IMG/VR virus record: IMGVR_UViG_3300029319_000638
Location: 1-20,989 of that record
Reading direction: 5' to 3' (one strand)
Source: a virus
Length of the DNA stretch: 20,989 nucleotides
The notes under the pieces were generated by a model. It was given only the letters and a program-made list of their open reading frames with translations. It had not been told where the DNA came from and ran no database searches. This document shows, piece by piece, positions 5,704 through 20,989 of this stretch. Both the position numbers and the translations under genes were made by a program. Position 1 is the stretch's first letter. The number at the start of each line of letters is the position of its first letter.

Positions 5704-6405
5704 ATGACTTGGAAATACAAAGCATTACTTCACGCACAACGAGAAGATCCAAAAGAATCCTGTGGTCTTTTACTAAACATTAAAGGTAAGGAAAGATATT
5801 ATCCCTGTCGTAATCTTTCAATGACAGAGCATCAATGTTTTATTATCGACCCAGAAGATTATGTAAAAGCAGATAATACAGGAGAAATTGTTGGGGTTAT
5901 TCATAGTCACCCAATAACACCTCCTGCACCCAGTCAGGCAGATAAGATTGGTTGCGAAAATAGTAATTTACCGTGGCATATTGTTAACCCAAAAACAGAA
6001 CAATGGGCTTATTTAGAACCATGTGGTTACAAGCCACCAATTCTAGGCCGTCAATGGGTATGGGGTATTACAGATTGTTGGGCTTTAGTTAGAGATTGGT
6101 ATAAACAAAATAAAAACATAGAATTAAGAGATTGGGAGCGACCTGCTACTCCCGAAGATTTTTTAAAAGATCCCATGTTTGAAAGATGTGCATGGCGAAC
6201 AGGTTTTAGAGAATTACGACCAGAAGAACCTTTAGAAAATGGTGATTTATTATTTATGAGTATTTTAAATCCAGGGTTAAATCATGTAGCATTATTTTTT
6301 GAAGGAGATGTTATTCATCATTTAACCGATAGACTATCTTGTAGAGAGCCTTACTCTGAATGGCTGTTAAAATGTACAGGAAAGAGGTTACGTTATGCTT
6401 CGTAA
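5704..6405 (+). CDS. Tail tip protein K-like: JAMM peptidase plus NlpC/P60 hydrolase
   Basis: A 233-residue two-domain protein. Residues 1-115 form a JAB/MPN domain with an intact JAMM zinc motif: Glu18, His67-Ser-His69, Ser77 and Asp80 in the spacing H-x-H-x7-S-x2-D. Residues 116-233 form an NlpC/P60 cysteine peptidase domain with catalytic Cys125 in TDCWALVRDWY and the partner His194 in NHVALFF. Lambda gpK has the same pair. The NlpC half is thought to cut peptidoglycan cross-links during DNA entry, and the JAMM half probably processes a tail tip partner. All key residues visible here are present, so both activities may be live. It follows L by two bases and overlaps the I-like gene by 11 bases. 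Confidence 0.92.
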   Translation: MTWKYKALLHAQREDPKESCGLLLNIKGKERYYPCRNLSMTEHQCFIIDPEDYVKADNTGEIVGVIHSHPITPPAPSQADKIGCENSNLPWHIVNPKTEQWAYLEPCGYKPPILGRQWVWGITDCWALVRDWYKQNKNIELRDWERPATPEDFLKDPMFERCAWRTGFRELRPEEPLENGDLLFMSILNPGLNHVALFFEGDVIHHLTDRLSCREPYSEWLLKCTGKRLRYAS

Positions 6406-16543: not shown

Positions 16544-16765
16544 ATGTTTCAAAAAATCGCTAATGTTTTGAGTATCATCTCATTTGTAATGGTAGCTTCC
16601 ATGAGTGGTGGAGCGTATTTTGGTTACAAGTATGTAACTTCTGAACAATTCAAATCAAGAGTTATGAATGAAATCCTTGGTAATGTACAAGGAATGATGC
16701 CAAAAGTTTTAGATAATTCTTTACCACAAACAACAGGAAAATCTATTCCTTTTTTAAATAAATAA
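16544..16765 (+). CDS. Small one-helix membrane protein
   Basis: A 73-residue protein. After MFQKIAN a hydrophobic segment of about 23 residues (VLSIISFVMVASMSGGAYFG) makes one membrane span; the remainder is polar and ends KSIPFLNK. ATG 16544 is used. The frame is open further upstream to 16466, but that stretch has no ATG, GTG or TTG codon. No clear Shine-Dalgarno precedes the ATG. Similar small proteins occur in cyanophages next to a proline-rich gene (from memory). A holin or a virion membrane role cannot be told apart from sequence. Confidence 0.6.
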   Translation: MFQKIANVLSIISFVMVASMSGGAYFGYKYVTSEQFKSRVMNEILGNVQGMMPKVLDNSLPQTTGKSIPFLNK

Positions 16766-17392
16766 TTGGAAATACCCGACATAAGTATTTCTGAAATATA
16801 CATTCCAAACGTTCCAGAGCCTTATACTCCTCATTATTTAACTATTACAAAGCCACCAGATATAGATGTTCCTGGTTGTACCTATCAACATCGTGATATA
16901 AAAAATACTGGTAATCGAAATTTATTATTAGAAGATCCTAATGGTGTATTTACAACGTGTGATTTTCCGTTCCCTAGTTTTATTCCTCTTGACTATACAC
17001 CTGAGAATATGGTCATTACAGAAGAACCACTTGTCGATAATGAAGCACCGCCCTTTCCAGAAACAGAACAGCCAAAGATTCCTGACCTACCTGAACCACC
17101 CCCACCAGATTTTCCTCCATGCCCTGGTAAAAATGACCAAAGAGTAGGGGATTTTCGTAACGATAAAAAGTTAGAACGTGTTATTGGGCATGAAAGAGGG
17201 CAAGATGGTAGTGAATGCGTGACTTTGTATGAAGCAGTTGAGTGGAAAGACCAGTACATTCCGTCTGCTCCACAGTTTGTTGGGGTTTTTAGCCTTGCTT
17301 TGGTTGGTGCTTCTGCACCACTTGTACTTCAGCTTGTCCGTCCAATAGTTAAACAAATAGTCACTAAATTAACTAAGAAAAAGGTAAAATAA
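16766..17392 (+). CDS. Proline-rich, C-terminally anchored protein
   Basis: A 208-residue protein read from a TTG that follows the previous stop with no gap (TAATTG); the next Met is near residue 90, which would lose a well-formed N-terminus. Residues 1-125 are Pro-rich (about one in five), including a PEPPPPDFPPCPG run. Residues 126-170 contain RVGDFRNDKKLERVIGHERG and SECVTLYEAVEW. Residues about 172-195 form a hydrophobic span, and the end is very basic (KQIVTKLTKKKVK). I recall cyanophage relatives with the same order. The layout suggests a tail-anchored protein with an extended arm. Function is unknown; the spaced cysteines could form disulphides if the arm is outside the cytoplasm. Confidence 0.6.
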   Translation: MEIPDISISEIYIPNVPEPYTPHYLTITKPPDIDVPGCTYQHRDIKNTGNRNLLLEDPNGVFTTCDFPFPSFIPLDYTPENMVITEEPLVDNEAPPFPETEQPKIPDLPEPPPPDFPPCPGKNDQRVGDFRNDKKLERVIGHERGQDGSECVTLYEAVEWKDQYIPSAPQFVGVFSLALVGASAPLVLQLVRPIVKQIVTKLTKKKVK

Positions 17393-17424
17393 AAATACCC
17401 TATTCGCCACGGCAATGGATAGGG
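17386..17424 (-). terminator. Intrinsic terminator for the minus-strand cluster
   Basis: Read on the minus strand, CCCTAT then CCA (pairing with TGG) and ATAGGG form a hairpin from 17424 to 17398, followed by TATTTTTATTTTAC (17397-17384). The T-rich run overlaps the end of the proline-rich gene on the other strand. It stands about 130 bases beyond the stop of the last minus-strand gene. Confidence 0.5.
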
Positions 17425-17557
17425 CGTCTAGGTGGGCAAGTTTAACCGTGCTTGCCTACTGCTTAAATTGATGCTAATGTGATATACAAGCATTGCAATC
17501 TGTAAGCCCCTACTGATTGAAATAAAGGTAGTTTAAACGTGAGCCCAGAACCAATGC
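17425..17557. other. Hairpin-rich gap between convergent operons
   Basis: No gene is seen here. A 10-bp stem pairs 17431-17440 (GGTGGGCAAG) with 17451-17460 (CTTGCCTACT), with two G-T pairs. Its loop TTTAA (17441-17445) could pair with TTAAA at 17463-17467, making a possible pseudoknot. A second hairpin joins ATTG-ATGCT (17467-17475) with AGCAT-TG-CAAT (17489-17499). None is followed by a T tract on the plus strand. The segment could be a stabilising 3' end or a small RNA; no known RNA family is recognised. Confidence 0.35.
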
Positions 17558-18304
17558 TTATTTTATTTTGTGAGTATGTGGGATAACTTGATTTGGTGGA
17601 ACTGTTACTACAATATCTTCACAAGTAACTGCACTTGGTGTACCCTCTTTAAATTTAGCTCCCAACCTCGCTTGAGCCGCACATTGTTCTAAACGATAGA
17701 GGCTGATTTCCATTTTAGTTTTCTTTATTAGTAATCTTTGAGCTTCAATATTTACTGCGGTTGCTTCATGGCAAAGGGTTGGAGACTTACCTAGCGGGAT
17801 ATTAAACTGAGCAGATATTCCATAATTTAGATTAAAATTATCTTTTTCAAATCTAGGTATTTCTGAATAATATTTGATCTCACCAGTATCTTCGTCATAG
17901 ATAGGTGTCCTCGTAATATATTCTTTGGGTCGTGCGAAAGACCAACTATCGGTTACATAAGGTGTAATTGTAAGGCTAGGCGAAGCACATACTATGCCCT
18001 GACTCATTTTGTAAGATGGCATAGCTGATGGCGTTATCATAGTTGCATTATTATTGACAACACCTTGAGCATTTGAAGAAGGAGAAGCAACAGTTGTATT
18101 AGCCAAAACCTTTGCAGGGCAAAGGATTATAGCTACTGCCCAAAGGTAGTTGTAGTTTCTGTTGTTGTACTTGTATTTATTTGACGAGTTATTGAAGTTA
18201 CTGTGTCTAGACCTGGTGTTATTAATGTTTCTTGAAGAGAGAAGGCTGCTCCATCGTTTGTTATTGACCAGCGAGGTATAGCTTCTAAGTTTGGTGAAGT
18301 CCAA
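17558..18304 (-). CDS. Exported protein of unknown function, start uncertain
   Basis: The frame gives up to 248 residues from a TTG at 18304, but the first 53 residues overlap the preceding gene in another frame and are low-complexity Asn/Ser/Arg. A signal-peptide-like stretch, LWAVAIILCPAKVLA (18145-18101), comes after them, with a likely cut before NTT. No ATG, GTG or TTG occurs between 18304 and this stretch in frame. The mature part has CASPSLTITPYVTDSWSFARP and a long helix with EAQRLLIKKTKMEISLYRLE, then EQCAAQARLGAKF and a final CEDIVVTVPP. Similar proteins occur in cyanophages from memory, without known function. The gene may use an unusual start, a -1 frameshift, or carry an indel. 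Confidence 0.6.
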   Translation of the reverse strand: MDFTKLRSYTSLVNNKRWSSLLSSRNINNTRSRHSNFNNSSNKYKYNNRNYNYLWAVAIILCPAKVLANTTVASPSSNAQGVVNNNATMITPSAMPSYKMSQGIVCASPSLTITPYVTDSWSFARPKEYITRTPIYDEDTGEIKYYSEIPRFEKDNFNLNYGISAQFNIPLGKSPTLCHEATAVNIEAQRLLIKKTKMEISLYRLEQCAAQARLGAKFKEGTPSAVTCEDIVVTVPPNQVIPHTHKIK

Positions 18305-18564
18305 TGAAAGTTTACTCCTCCAACCGTTTGTTCATTCGTAGTCGTAGGAGTAGGGTTGATATATCCTGTTTCAGATTCGATATTATGTCCTGATGCTGAG
18401 TAGGAGTAACCTGTCCGATATTGATGGCTCGTAATCGTTTCATTAATTATTGATTCTGAGGTGCTTGAAGTTTGGCTCGAACCTGTACGAAATTGTGGCA
18501 CAATAGGCACAGCAAGGGTTCTTACTGGTAATACTAATAAAACTAGCAGCCAAAGTCTAGTCAA
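18133..18564 (-). CDS. Exported protein of unknown function (middle gene of cluster)
   Basis: A 143-residue protein starting eight bases inside the previous gene. MTRLWLLVLLVLPVRTLA is a clear signal peptide, with cleavage expected before VPIVPQ. The mature part is Ser/Thr-rich: PQFRTGSSQTSSTSESIINE, then YRTGYSYSASGHNIESETG and VGGVNFHWTSPN, ending in TSTTTETTTTFGQ. No cysteine is found, and no enzyme motif. Such a composition suggests a beta-rich surface or periplasmic protein. It is sandwiched between two other exported proteins on the same strand. Confidence 0.65.
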   Translation of the reverse strand: MTRLWLLVLLVLPVRTLAVPIVPQFRTGSSQTSSTSESIINETITSHQYRTGYSYSASGHNIESETGYINPTPTTTNEQTVGGVNFHWTSPNLEAIPRWSITNDGAAFSLQETLITPGLDTVTSITRQINTSTTTETTTTFGQ

Positions 18565-19072
18565 TCGTAATAGTAACTTTAGTAGATCCTATGCAAGATG
18601 TACCAGACCCACCTGCGGTACAGGTATGTATTCCAGAACTCAATGACGTTAAAGCGAGAGATCCAGCAGTACCGCCTGATCCAATAGTAGTCTGACCACC
18701 TAATACTGGTAATGCTGCAATACCCGAACTAGGAGTCACAGCAGATGGTGTAGCGTCACCCATAATTACCGATTCTGTTTTCGAGAACGCTGAACCGCTA
18801 GTAGTTACTGTAGTATCTGTCTGAATCATCGCTGGTACACCATTACTAAGGCTGCCAACATTGATACCGCCTATCTTCCCTGCTGTTGTGGTATCTCCTA
18901 CGGTTACAGATGGTGTAATATTATTTCCGCTAAGACTATATGTAGTGCCTACTTTATTGGTAACAACGTATGGCATATCTACACTTATCTGAGCAGAAGT
19001 AACAAACTCCTGTTTTATGTCAGCTAATACAGGACTAGATGCCAATAATAATAATGGAAGCAGCTTTTTCAT
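18557..19072 (-). CDS. Exported beta-rich protein of unknown function
   Basis: A 171-residue protein. MKKLLPLLLLASSPVLA is a textbook signal peptide with cleavage before DIKQEF. The mature part has QEFVTSAQISVDMPYVVTNK, then repeated Gly/Ser/Thr-rich strands (SGNNITPSVTVGDTTTAG, GGQTTIGSGGTAGSLAL), and ends with two cysteines (HTCTAGGSGTSC) and STKVTITID. The pattern suggests a beta-helix or adhesin-like fold. The start shares ATGA with the end of the membrane protein gene upstream, so the two are likely translated together. I recall similar cyanophage proteins, with no assigned role. Confidence 0.7.
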   Translation of the reverse strand: MKKLLPLLLLASSPVLADIKQEFVTSAQISVDMPYVVTNKVGTTYSLSGNNITPSVTVGDTTTAGKIGGINVGSLSNGVPAMIQTDTTVTTSGSAFSKTESVIMGDATPSAVTPSSGIAALPVLGGQTTIGSGGTAGSLALTSLSSGIHTCTAGGSGTSCIGSTKVTITID

Positions 19073-19428
19073 TTTTTAGATTTTGGGTCGATTACTTCAG
19101 CACCTTCAATCTTGATAGGTGTTATTACCCTTATAGTCTGAACCATACCATCTTCCATTGCAACTTTGTCGTCTTTCTTACTACTTTTTTTAGATCCTTC
19201 CAAACCGAATGTTGCCAGTGCTCCCGTCAGAAGCGAAGCAGGAAACGTGATGTCTTTAGGCTCTGAACTATAACCTGGTATTGAAATGTAGTTAAGAGTC
19301 ACTATAAATCCACTCCAAACAACTACACCTAATCTTACAAAAAGACTAATAATTGCTAACTGTTCTTCTTTATCATCTAAGCCTTCCTTTAATTTTTGAA
19401 AAGGGTTTTTCTTCTTCTCTTCAACCAT
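19069..19428 (-). CDS. Holin-like small membrane protein
   Basis: A 119-residue protein, first gene of the minus-strand cluster. The charged N-terminus (VEEKKKNPFQKLKEGLDDKE) is followed by a hydrophobic span at about residues 24-47 (AIISLFVRLGVVVWSGFIVT), a short loop with YISIPGYSSEPKDITF, a second weaker span (PASLLTGALATFGL), and a basic tail with KKSSKKDDK. Two spans and a charged tail fit a class II holin, but nothing proves it: no endolysin is seen beside it. The ATGA overlap couples it to the first exported protein, so an envelope-complex role is equally possible. Confidence 0.6.
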   Translation of the reverse strand: MVEEKKKNPFQKLKEGLDDKEEQLAIISLFVRLGVVVWSGFIVTLNYISIPGYSSEPKDITFPASLLTGALATFGLEGSKKSSKKDDKVAMEDGMVQTIRVITPIKIEGAEVIDPKSKK

Positions 19429-19494: not shown

Positions 19495-19677
19495 ATGTTA
19501 AAAATTTTAAAACCGTTACTTCTTAAATTCCTTTCTACGTCAGCCTGCAAACAGTTGGTTATAGACCTATTGCGAGCTATTTGTAAGCAGACCTCAAATA
19601 ATCTTGATGATCAAGCGGTTGATTTCTTAGAAGAACAACTGTTTCCAGGTAGACCTGTATCTTCTTTACCAAAATGA
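19495..19677 (+). CDS. Small helical protein of unknown function
   Basis: A 60-residue protein. The N-terminal half is an amphipathic or membrane-binding helix (MLKILKPLLLKFLSTSACKQ then LVIDLLRAICKQT), and the C-terminal half has DDQAVDFLEEQLFPG. It overlaps the next gene by four bases (ATGA). I remember similar short proteins in cyanophages, paired with a gene like the next one. The role is not known; the amphipathic N-terminus suggests membrane contact. Confidence 0.55.
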   Translation: MLKILKPLLLKFLSTSACKQLVIDLLRAICKQTSNNLDDQAVDFLEEQLFPGRPVSSLPK

Positions 19678-20003
19678 AAGACACTTTTTTTCAAATTATC
19701 TTTGAATCTCCACCAGCTGAAGTTGAACTTTCTACAGAATTAAGGTGTAGAGAAATTATGAAGTCTAATGATATTGATAAAATAAAAGCATTTTGTTGTG
19801 ATTTAGTTAGAAACCAAGCGAAGATTGACGCTGTACTTTCTTCAGCCTTGGCACGTTTAGCAGAGCAAGAAGCAACAAAAATGGTTGAAGAAAAAATAGT
19901 AAAGGCAAAAGGTATTAACAAGTTATTATTTCTTTTTCATCAGTTTATGATAATGAAACAAGTAGAAAAAATTATGAAAGCAAGCCGTCCTCAAAATCCT
20001 TAA
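19674..20003 (+). CDS. Small helical protein of unknown function, paired with the previous gene
   Basis: A 109-residue protein that begins in an ATGA overlap with the 60-residue gene. It is all-helical: ELSTELRCREIMKSNDIDKI, then AFCCDLVRNQAKIDAVLSSA and ARLAEQEATKMVEEK. The middle heptads suggest a coiled coil. A REIMKxxD motif followed by CxxLVRxQ is one I associate with small cyanophage proteins, but no function follows. Its 3' end overlaps the end of the convergent minus-strand gene by 32 bases. Confidence 0.55.
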   Translation: MKDTFFQIIFESPPAEVELSTELRCREIMKSNDIDKIKAFCCDLVRNQAKIDAVLSSALARLAEQEATKMVEEKIVKAKGINKLLFLFHQFMIMKQVEKIMKASRPQNP

Positions 20004-20238
20004 GTTCTTGTTCTGAAAAATCTTCTTCACGCATACTTAGAACTTCACAAATTAACGCATTATGTTTTATAACAGCAGTTCTAATAAACTCTGTTACCCA
20101 TTTACCATTAGTTATAAGTTGAGCTTTTCGATTACCGTCAATAAAAACATAATGATCATAACCTCTTAAATCTTGATCTAATAATTTTTTTTCTAAGTTT
20201 GATATTCTATTTAATTTTAAAGTTTTTAATTTATTCAT
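19972..20238 (-). CDS. Unknown small protein downstream of the methyltransferase
   Basis: An 88-residue protein whose ATG lies inside the methyltransferase's last codons (eight-base overlap), so it is probably translated from the same message. It has a basic helical N-terminus (NKLKTLKLNRISNLEKKLLD), a beta pattern YDHYVFIDGNRKAQLI then NGKWVTEFIRTAV, and an acidic C-terminal helix (REEDFSEQELKDFEDGL). I do not recognise it. The position suggests a link with DNA modification or its regulation, but there is no DNA-binding motif that I can see. Confidence 0.55.
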   Translation of the reverse strand: MNKLKTLKLNRISNLEKKLLDQDLRGYDHYVFIDGNRKAQLITNGKWVTEFIRTAVIKHNALICEVLSMREEDFSEQELKDFEDGLLS

Positions 20239-20989
20239 TGTAATAAAGATCGTGTACTCTTTTCAGAGGTATAGCAGCGACTTGTGGCACTACTGAATTT
20301 CCGAGGGCTTTAGTTCTGTCCACCCTATAGGATAACCCATCATCTCCTCTACGAAGTATGGGCTTACTGACATATGATCTCCAATCTGGGTTAAGACATC
20401 TGGTAGCACCTTTGGCCCATATTTCTCGTTCCATTTGGCTGAAGTTCTGCCTTTGTAGTCTCTTGCTGTTGGAGTCGGTAGACTTTGTAAATGATTGAAC
20501 AACTCTACTGTTTGAGGATTCAATGCTTCTCGTAGATTTGCCAACTTGGTTCGCCCTTTGCGATGTATCGTTGTTTGTTTGATCATCGAATCCACTGATC
20601 GAGGAGGTAGGTGATCCATAGTCGTTGGTGTAGGCAACACACCACCACCTTGAACGTCTGTGGCAGGCTCCCAATGAACTCGCAGATATAACTGACCATT
20701 CTGCATCGTACCCTGCTTGGGAAAGCTCTCCGAGAACGATGTCCAATCCATTATTAAGGATCGCTGCCACGTTTTCCAAGACAACGAATCTTGGTCGAAC
20801 CATGCGTATGACTCGCATGAGTTCGTAAAAGATACCTGATCTGGATTCTTCTGTGATTCCAGCTCTATTTCCTGCCACTGATATTGATTGACAGGGAAAG
20901 CCTCCGCAGATGACATCATATTGTCCAGGGATAGCTGTGAATGTTCTGATGTCATCATGGATTGGAGTGAATGGAAAATGTTTTTTAAG
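20231..20989 (-). CDS. DNA cytosine-5 methyltransferase, partial (N-terminus outside window)
   Basis: The frame is open to the window edge, giving the last 252 residues. CGGFPCQSISVAG holds motif IV with the catalytic Cys (residue 33 of the visible part). FVVLENVAAIL is motif VI with Glu72. LGACHRRSRWW is motif VIII with His in place of the usual Gln. RVDRTKALGNSVVPQVAAIP forms motif X. Motif I with the SAM-binding loop lies beyond the edge. A GTG at 20878 is internal and is not the start. The region between motifs VIII and X is short (about 90 residues), so target recognition is compact. It likely methylates phage DNA to evade host restriction. The local DNA is clearly less AT-rich than the tail genes. 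Confidence 0.95.
   Translation of the reverse strand, partial: LKKHFPFTPIHDDIRTFTAIPGQYDVICGGFPCQSISVAGNRAGITEESRSGIFYELMRVIRMVRPRFVVLENVAAILNNGLDIVLGELSQAGYDAEWSVISASSLGACHRRSRWWCVAYTNDYGSPTSSISGFDDQTNNDTSQRANQVGKSTRSIESSNSRVVQSFTKSTDSNSKRLQRQNFSQMEREIWAKGATRCLNPDWRSYVSKPILRRGDDGLSYRVDRTKALGNSVVPQVAAIPLKRVHDLYYNE
20290..20958 (-). CDS. Overlapping frame with PTPT...D and MGYP-GW motifs, possible second gene inside the methyltransferase
   Basis: A 222-codon frame on the same strand as the methyltransferase, shifted and nearly wholly inside it, open even beyond its ATG at 20958. The translation contains SLSWKTWQRSL (residues 58-68), SESFPKQGTMQNGQLY (76-91), LPTPTTMDHLPPRS (108-121), LPTPTARDYKG (160-170) and EEMMGYPIGWTELKP (204-218). 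I know this order of motifs from a phage protein family often found near cytosine methyltransferases. Each of its motifs lies over a conserved methyltransferase motif, so it may be a real overprinted gene or a shadow kept open by methyltransferase constraint. No Shine-Dalgarno check is possible at its true start. Confidence 0.4.
   Translation of the reverse strand: MMTSEHSQLSLDNMMSSAEAFPVNQYQWQEIELESQKNPDQVSFTNSCESYAWFDQDSLSWKTWQRSLIMDWTSFSESFPKQGTMQNGQLYLRVHWEPATDVQGGGVLPTPTTMDHLPPRSVDSMIKQTTIHRKGRTKLANLREALNPQTVELFNHLQSLPTPTARDYKGRTSAKWNEKYGPKVLPDVLTQIGDHMSVSPYFVEEMMGYPIGWTELKPSEIQ

Follow-up and report, generated by a model that had tools for sequence, protein, structure and literature searches.

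The stretch of DNA analysed here (the window), a linear virus record of 20,989 bases, is identified by its tail genes as a fragment of a lambda-like cyanosiphovirus. Adjoining its tail-fibre genes is a minus-strand cassette of four genes, g1 to g4, on which two plus-strand genes, p568 and p570, converge (Table 1). A sequence-only reading of this DNA had described four overlapping minus-strand genes encoding one two-span membrane protein and three exported proteins, and the open reading frames, overlaps (including 4 nt between g1 and g2 and 8 nt between g2 and g3), spans and signal segments were all found. Those four genes are real, but the unit to which they belong is a module of six, two of which converge from the other strand. 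The hairpin between the convergent operons (~17390-17425) is no stronger than those of shuffled sequences (z = -0.69), and an intrinsic terminator at this place was rejected on that basis.

Table 1. Genes of the six-gene module and neighbouring features of the window
Feature	Position	Strand	Description	Family
g1	19428-19069	minus	119 aa; DUF6450 two-span membrane protein, holin-like	T4-GC 218 / PSSP7_043
g2	19072-18557	minus	171 aa; exported, signal peptide MKKLLPLLLLASSPVLA	T4-GC 237
g3	18564-18133	minus	143 aa, TTG start; exported DUF6322 protein, signal segment MTRLWLLVLLVLPVRTLA	T4-GC 236 / PSSP7_044
g4	18304-17558	minus	248 aa from likely TTG at 18304; signal segment LWAVAIILCPAKVLA	T4-GC 235 / PSSP7_045
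g3/g4 out-of-frame overlap	18133-18304	minus
p568	16544-16765	plus	small, one N-terminal span; labelled 'plasmid stability' elsewhere	T4-GC 414
p570	16766-17392	plus	proline-rich, one C-terminal span, basic tail	T4-GC 234; PSSP7_042-like in podoviruses
Small gene	19674-20003	plus	family also matches a MED4-184 protein	phrog_30071
C5 cytosine DNA methyltransferase gene	20231-20989		3' part, runs off the window end	PF00145

Profile searches placed g1 in DUF6450 (PF20048, 1.8e-24; phrog_2714), g2 in phrog_564 (3.9e-34), g3 in DUF6322 (PF19847, 7.2e-28; phrog_650), and g4 in phrog_848 (4.1e-57) and also phrog_1755, all of which are families of unknown function. Members of the DUF6450 family are about 80-150 aa long with two spans and charged tails, and the hydrophobic spans of g1 begin at about residues 25 and 60. 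The other three proteins of the cassette each have a hydrophobic segment ending at a signal peptidase I-type site (VLA, TLA, and VLA in g2, g3, and g4, respectively), with neither a Cys at +1 nor a lipobox in the window's proteins or their aligned relatives. The g2 and g3 proteins are related to one another (hhalign E 3.1e-9, probability 96), the aligned part taking in the signal region; a gene labelled 'omp1' beside psbA in S-RSM2 (locus L087, 3568-4062) is a further relative of g2. On the plus strand, p568 (phrog_568, 3.4e-17) has its hydrophobic span from residue 8, and p570 (phrog_570, 1.3e-38) is 15% Pro with a span from residue 173. 'Plasmid stability' was rejected as the function of p568, a small one-span membrane protein for which the label looks inherited. 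Scans against Pfam, PHROGs, and NCBIfam found no catalytic or peptidoglycan hydrolase domain in the module proteins.

The g3 protein is predicted to be all-beta (model pLDDT 79), and g4 (model pLDDT 67) is predicted to combine an amphipathic hairpin with a long helix, its residues 86-102 alternating strongly in the manner of an amphipathic strand; four Cys are invariant in a 40-sequence alignment of g4. Because these models are weak and the structure matches of g3 and g4 in Foldseek and VIA-align are insignificant (Z below 5; anthrax PA, CDTb, lysenin and aerolysin stems, levivirus coats, and lower collar proteins), we claim no fold for either protein. A search of solved structures returned nothing credible.

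A start of g4 inside g3

There is no ATG, GTG, or TTG near the signal segment of g4 (core at about 18145-18101, mature part 18100-17561), and the nearest in-frame start is the TTG at 18304, which lies inside g3, 172 nt before its end. The same arrangement recurs elsewhere: of 213 loci, 211 read g4 in the -1 frame relative to g3, with the nearest usable starts far upstream in nearly all of them. The base before the TG located 172 or 178 nt ahead of the g3 stop is C in 1 of 94 distinct sequences as against 17% C at g3 third positions overall (binomial 5e-7, the relatedness of the sequences not being corrected for), and at a comparison site, -139, C occurs in 27 of 98. Conservation of this position in siphoviruses and T4-like phages suggests that g4 probably starts inside g3, with a long positively charged leader preceding the signal core. 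The g4 of P-SCSP1u starts from a nearby ATG in the other frame. A programmed -1 frameshift from g3 into g4 was considered and rejected, there being no slippery heptamer at the shared end, and a start inside g3 fits better.

Two annotated copies differ in how the start has been placed. The annotated start of P-SSP7 PSSP7_045 (locus L086, 7533-8156) leaves out the signal peptide, which is located in the overlap with PSSP7_044. In MED4-184 (locus L001, ~5990-6040), the -1 frame of g4 is interrupted shortly past g3, close to seven consecutive T, and g4 is annotated from a TTG in the other frame; this could be a sequencing error or a real shift.

Distribution and gene order among cyanophages

A tblastn search of 50,697 phage records matched g4 in 383 records (453 when the P-SSP7 copy was the query), p570 in 395, g1 in 310, g3 in 186, and g2 in 72. 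Without exception, these were cyanophages or marine phage records, and the existence of such homologues shows that g1 to g4 are not chance open reading frames. The T7-like S-TIP37 is among the carriers of g3. This spread, together with membership in families of unknown function, bears out the earlier suggestion that the cassette occurs widely, is conserved, and has yet to be explained.

Scanned with the family profiles, 222 loci (the window and 221 others) showed three main layouts. In T7-like podoviruses, p570-g1-g3-g4 lie on one strand, in a form of the module without g2; in siphoviruses and MPP-C podoviruses, g1-(g2)-g3-g4 face p570, joined by p568 in the siphoviruses; and in T4-like phages, g2-g3-g4 face p570-(219)-p568-g1, placing the DUF6450 membrane gene on the strand opposite to the exported genes. 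In S-TIM5, DUF6450 lies about 29 kb from g4, yet both are present. The sequence-only reading had named the genes being found apart in most genomes as an outcome that would count against it. The exported genes in fact remain adjacent, and although the membrane gene changes strand in T4-like phages and lies far off in S-TIM5, and g2 is missing in podoviruses, the co-occurrence still holds. The g4 family profile and DUF6450 agree in presence or absence in 20 of 21 genomes: both occur in eight (P-SSP7, P-SCSP1u, S-SSM5, Syn9, S-TIM5, S-SKS1, MED4-117, and DSL-LC02) and neither in 12 (Syn5, S-PM2, P-SS2, P60, S-CBS1, S-CBS3, ACG-2014f, S-CREM1, S-SRM01, S-CRM01, and the freshwater Ma-LMM01 and Pf-WMP3). 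The exception is S-CAM7, a lysozyme-bearing phage with a divergent g4 and no DUF6450, in which a divergent g3/g4-like exported pair (locus L271, 2383-3288) has ordinary ATG starts.

A pattern-based scan of a genome collection found no bacterial copy outside phage-like contigs. The 13 contigs recovered came from single-cell, metagenome, or isolate assemblies, and neighbouring phage genes were present on all 11 that were examined. A 188-kb contig filed under Nonlabens xiamenensis 1Q3 (NZ_RMVE01000006.1) has the module layout of T4-like cyanophages and is probably a cyanophage contaminant.

Position, lysozyme distribution, and function

In P-SSP7, the operon comprising PSSP7_042 (p570-like), 043 (DUF6450, annotated with 2 TM), 044 (DUF6322), and 045 (g4) lies between the tail-fibre genes and terS. 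The tail-fibre-to-terminase interval of T7 holds the holin 17.5; immediately past this interval, the two terminase genes flank the spanins 18.5/18.7. A Pfam scan found no recognisable peptidoglycan hydrolase in P-SSP7, and none among the best 25 of the 34 families matched in MED4-184, the closest siphovirus; both the module and a recognisable endolysin are absent from Syn5. A match of S-SSM5 to PF00959 was rejected as an endolysin, being inside a 953-aa tail-like open reading frame and not free-standing, and a search for Glyco_hydro_108 was matchless everywhere and therefore uninformative. P-SSP7, Syn9, S-SM1, and S-PM2 appear in a published list of spanin-less phages that includes twenty isolated on Prochlorococcus or Synechococcus, for which a fragile outer membrane was suggested as the reason (PMC6139136). 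The late-promoter motif NATAAATA is not enriched upstream of g2 in T4-like operons (2 of 25 as against 1.0 expected); at g1 in siphovirus and MPP-C loci it occurs in 12 of 46 as against 3.7 expected, but at scattered positions, and was given no weight.

The module and lysozyme are distributed in a nearly complementary manner. In S-PM2, a T4-type lysozyme labelled 'putative lysin' is encoded as a free-standing protein next to genes for a C39-like peptidase and lipoproteins, and relatives of this lysozyme, often beside or fused to the peptidase, occur in S-CAM7, ACG-2014f, S-CREM1, S-SRM01, DSL-LC02, S-CBS3, and S-CRM01. The intact module is missing from seven of these eight lysozyme phages, and no module gene at all was found in six (S-PM2, S-CREM1, S-SRM01, S-CRM01, ACG-2014f, and S-CBS3); of the other two, DSL-LC02 (a phage genome recovered from lake water) combines module and lysozyme, and S-CAM7 has its divergent g3/g4-like pair. 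Conversely, no free-standing lysozyme of the S-PM2 family was found in the eight other module-bearing genomes tested, and P-SS2, which has a lysozyme (PMC2784084), has no module. A Fisher test on 20 genomes gave p = 0.03, a figure that is descriptive since the genomes were hand-picked partly by module and partly by lysozyme; a second figure, p = 9e-5, assumes that 15 other phages of the 2010 set of T4-like cyanophages have no lysozyme, two of which were checked, and is not to be relied on. Habitat is a partial confounder, several of the lysozyme phages infecting estuarine or freshwater hosts, but host alone does not explain the split, given that WH7803 grows both lysozyme phages (S-PM2 and S-CAM7) and module phages (S-SKS1 and S-SCSM2R). 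In ACG-2014f, a 'hypothetical protein' (locus L260, 1766-2983) is a fusion of the C39-like peptidase and the T4-type lysozyme, i.e., an unannotated endolysin.

The gene set, export signals, layouts, co-occurrence, position, and near-complementarity with lysozyme observed here lead us to propose, at a probability of roughly one half, that g1 to g4 with p568 and p570 form a cyanophage-specific lysis (envelope disruption) module, in which a holin-like protein and exported proteins would carry out the outer-envelope step without canonical spanins. We infer the lethality, timing, and order of action of the module as follows. DUF6450 would act as a two-span, class II-type holin-like protein; the C-terminal span of p570 would hold this protein in the inner membrane while its proline-rich part extends into the periplasm; g2, g3, and g4 would pass via Sec to the periplasm or outer membrane; and, once lysis is triggered, the putatively beta-rich g2 and g3 together with g4 would weaken or open the outer envelope, the exported proteins thereby taking the role of the Rz/Rz1 spanins and possibly part of that of the endolysin. 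The P-SSP7 position, the co-occurrence in three lineages, the missing hydrolase, the lysozyme split, and the restriction to phage-like contigs argue for this reading, and DSL-LC02, S-CAM7, Syn5, the lack of any catalytic family or late-promoter enrichment, the insignificant folds, and habitat argue against it. Disruption of the outer membrane at lysis, one of several options raised by the sequence-only reading, is thus the one that the evidence favours as a putative function, and the T7-slot position and near-complementary distribution with lysozymes cast doubt on its description of the exported proteins as non-lytic. A bolder version of the proposal, which we hold to be doubtful, is that the module is a self-sufficient non-canonical lysis system of most Prochlorococcus and marine Synechococcus viruses that needs no classical endolysin or spanin to open the whole envelope, has spread over three unrelated lineages, and was replaced by the conventional lysozyme cluster in S-PM2-type phages.

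It is unlikely that the module instead serves envelope remodelling or superinfection exclusion, with exported proteins coating or blocking the outer surface against other cyanophages and p570 and DUF6450 as inner-membrane partners. Several exported proteins in a row, confined to phages of one host group and common to unrelated lineages, could constitute an exclusion system, and Foldseek weakly, though not significantly, matches g4 to TraT, a lipoprotein of surface exclusion (E 0.4-0.55); however, there is no lipobox and, in the profile scans, no OMP or exclusion family match, and neither the near-complementarity with lysozyme nor the lysis-slot position would be expected. The type I signal peptides on three of the proteins, and the location of the genes among replication genes in T4-like phages, make it less likely still that the products are virion or virion-assembly proteins, be they small tail, collar, or whisker proteins or fibre-assembly proteins, as the adjoining tail-fibre genes in the window and P-SSP7 and weak fold matches of g3 to podovirus tail-knob and lower-collar chains (best E 1.7e-3, 8egr_I) might suggest; they are also annotated as 'hypothetical' and not structural in S-TIM5 and S-SM1, a virion proteome measurement being established for S-SM1 alone. 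Least probable is a host-physiology module that moves as a unit in the vicinity of pstS and hsp20 and whose exported proteins maintain the envelope or nutrient uptake of the infected cell: the T4-like cluster does lie near hsp20, pstS, and psbA and has been described as mobile (PMC3037559), but small podoviruses and siphoviruses lacking these neighbours also conserve the module, which has no bacterial homologue outside phage-like contigs in the genome-collection scan and matches no metabolic family.

Were the module a lysis system, it would explain why standard searches failed, allow lysis genes to be recognised by sequence in marine metatranscriptomes, and mean that T4-, T7-, and lambda-like phages share a lysis module owing to the host envelope and not to phage ancestry. 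Viral lysis of Prochlorococcus and Synechococcus sets free large amounts of carbon in the ocean, and the module may be how many of these viruses burst the ocean's commonest photosynthetic cells.

Comparison with known systems

The module shares with the spanins of lambda (Rz/Rz1) and T7 (18.5/18.7) the occurrence of envelope proteins in a T7-like lysis region and an out-of-frame overlap of two exported-protein genes. It differs from them in comprising six genes, in having signal peptidase I-type signals and no lipoprotein, and in its predicted all-beta and alpha/beta proteins, in place of a coiled-coil i-spanin and an o-spanin lipoprotein. None of g2 to g4 has the lipobox of the outer-membrane lipoprotein of a two-component spanin, and as candidate i-spanins, p568 has only about 45 further residues after its N-terminal span and p570 is anchored at its C-terminus. 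The peptidoglycan hydrolase domain that marks an endolysin is likewise absent from the module proteins. DUF6450 resembles class II holins (e.g., S21 of phage 21) in its small size, two spans, charged tails, and position in the P-SSP7 lysis slot, and is on these features a predicted holin, although it has no sequence match to any holin family.

The module also belongs with the mobile hypothetical cluster of T4-like cyanophages (T4-GC 218, 219, 234, 235, 237, and 'plasmid stability'), which the relevant passages of Sullivan et al. 2010 (PMC3037559) describe as mobile and as present in all T4-like cyanophages of their set except S-PM2; those passages propose no lysis function for it. Homologues of 218, 234, 235, and 237 and of the 'plasmid stability' gene are clustered in the window, the family assignments (Table 1) resting on profile scans and on the annotation of S-SSM5 and S-SM1. 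A paper naming DUF6322 or DUF6450 was not found in the literature searched, nor were the three-lineage presence, T7-slot position, lysozyme near-complementarity, and nested g4 start, subscription papers and supplements lying outside that search; a 'gp165' label common to some podovirus and T4-like copies indicates that annotators had already linked those. In T4-like phages, the cluster sits among replication genes and has the same families and the same convergent arrangement as the window module, whereas in the window siphovirus DUF6450 has moved into the g2-g4 operon and T4-GC 219 is missing, and podoviruses have the module as one operon that lacks g2. The cluster itself has thus been known since 2010, and what is new here is its occurrence in lambda-like siphoviruses and T7-like podoviruses and its three layouts.
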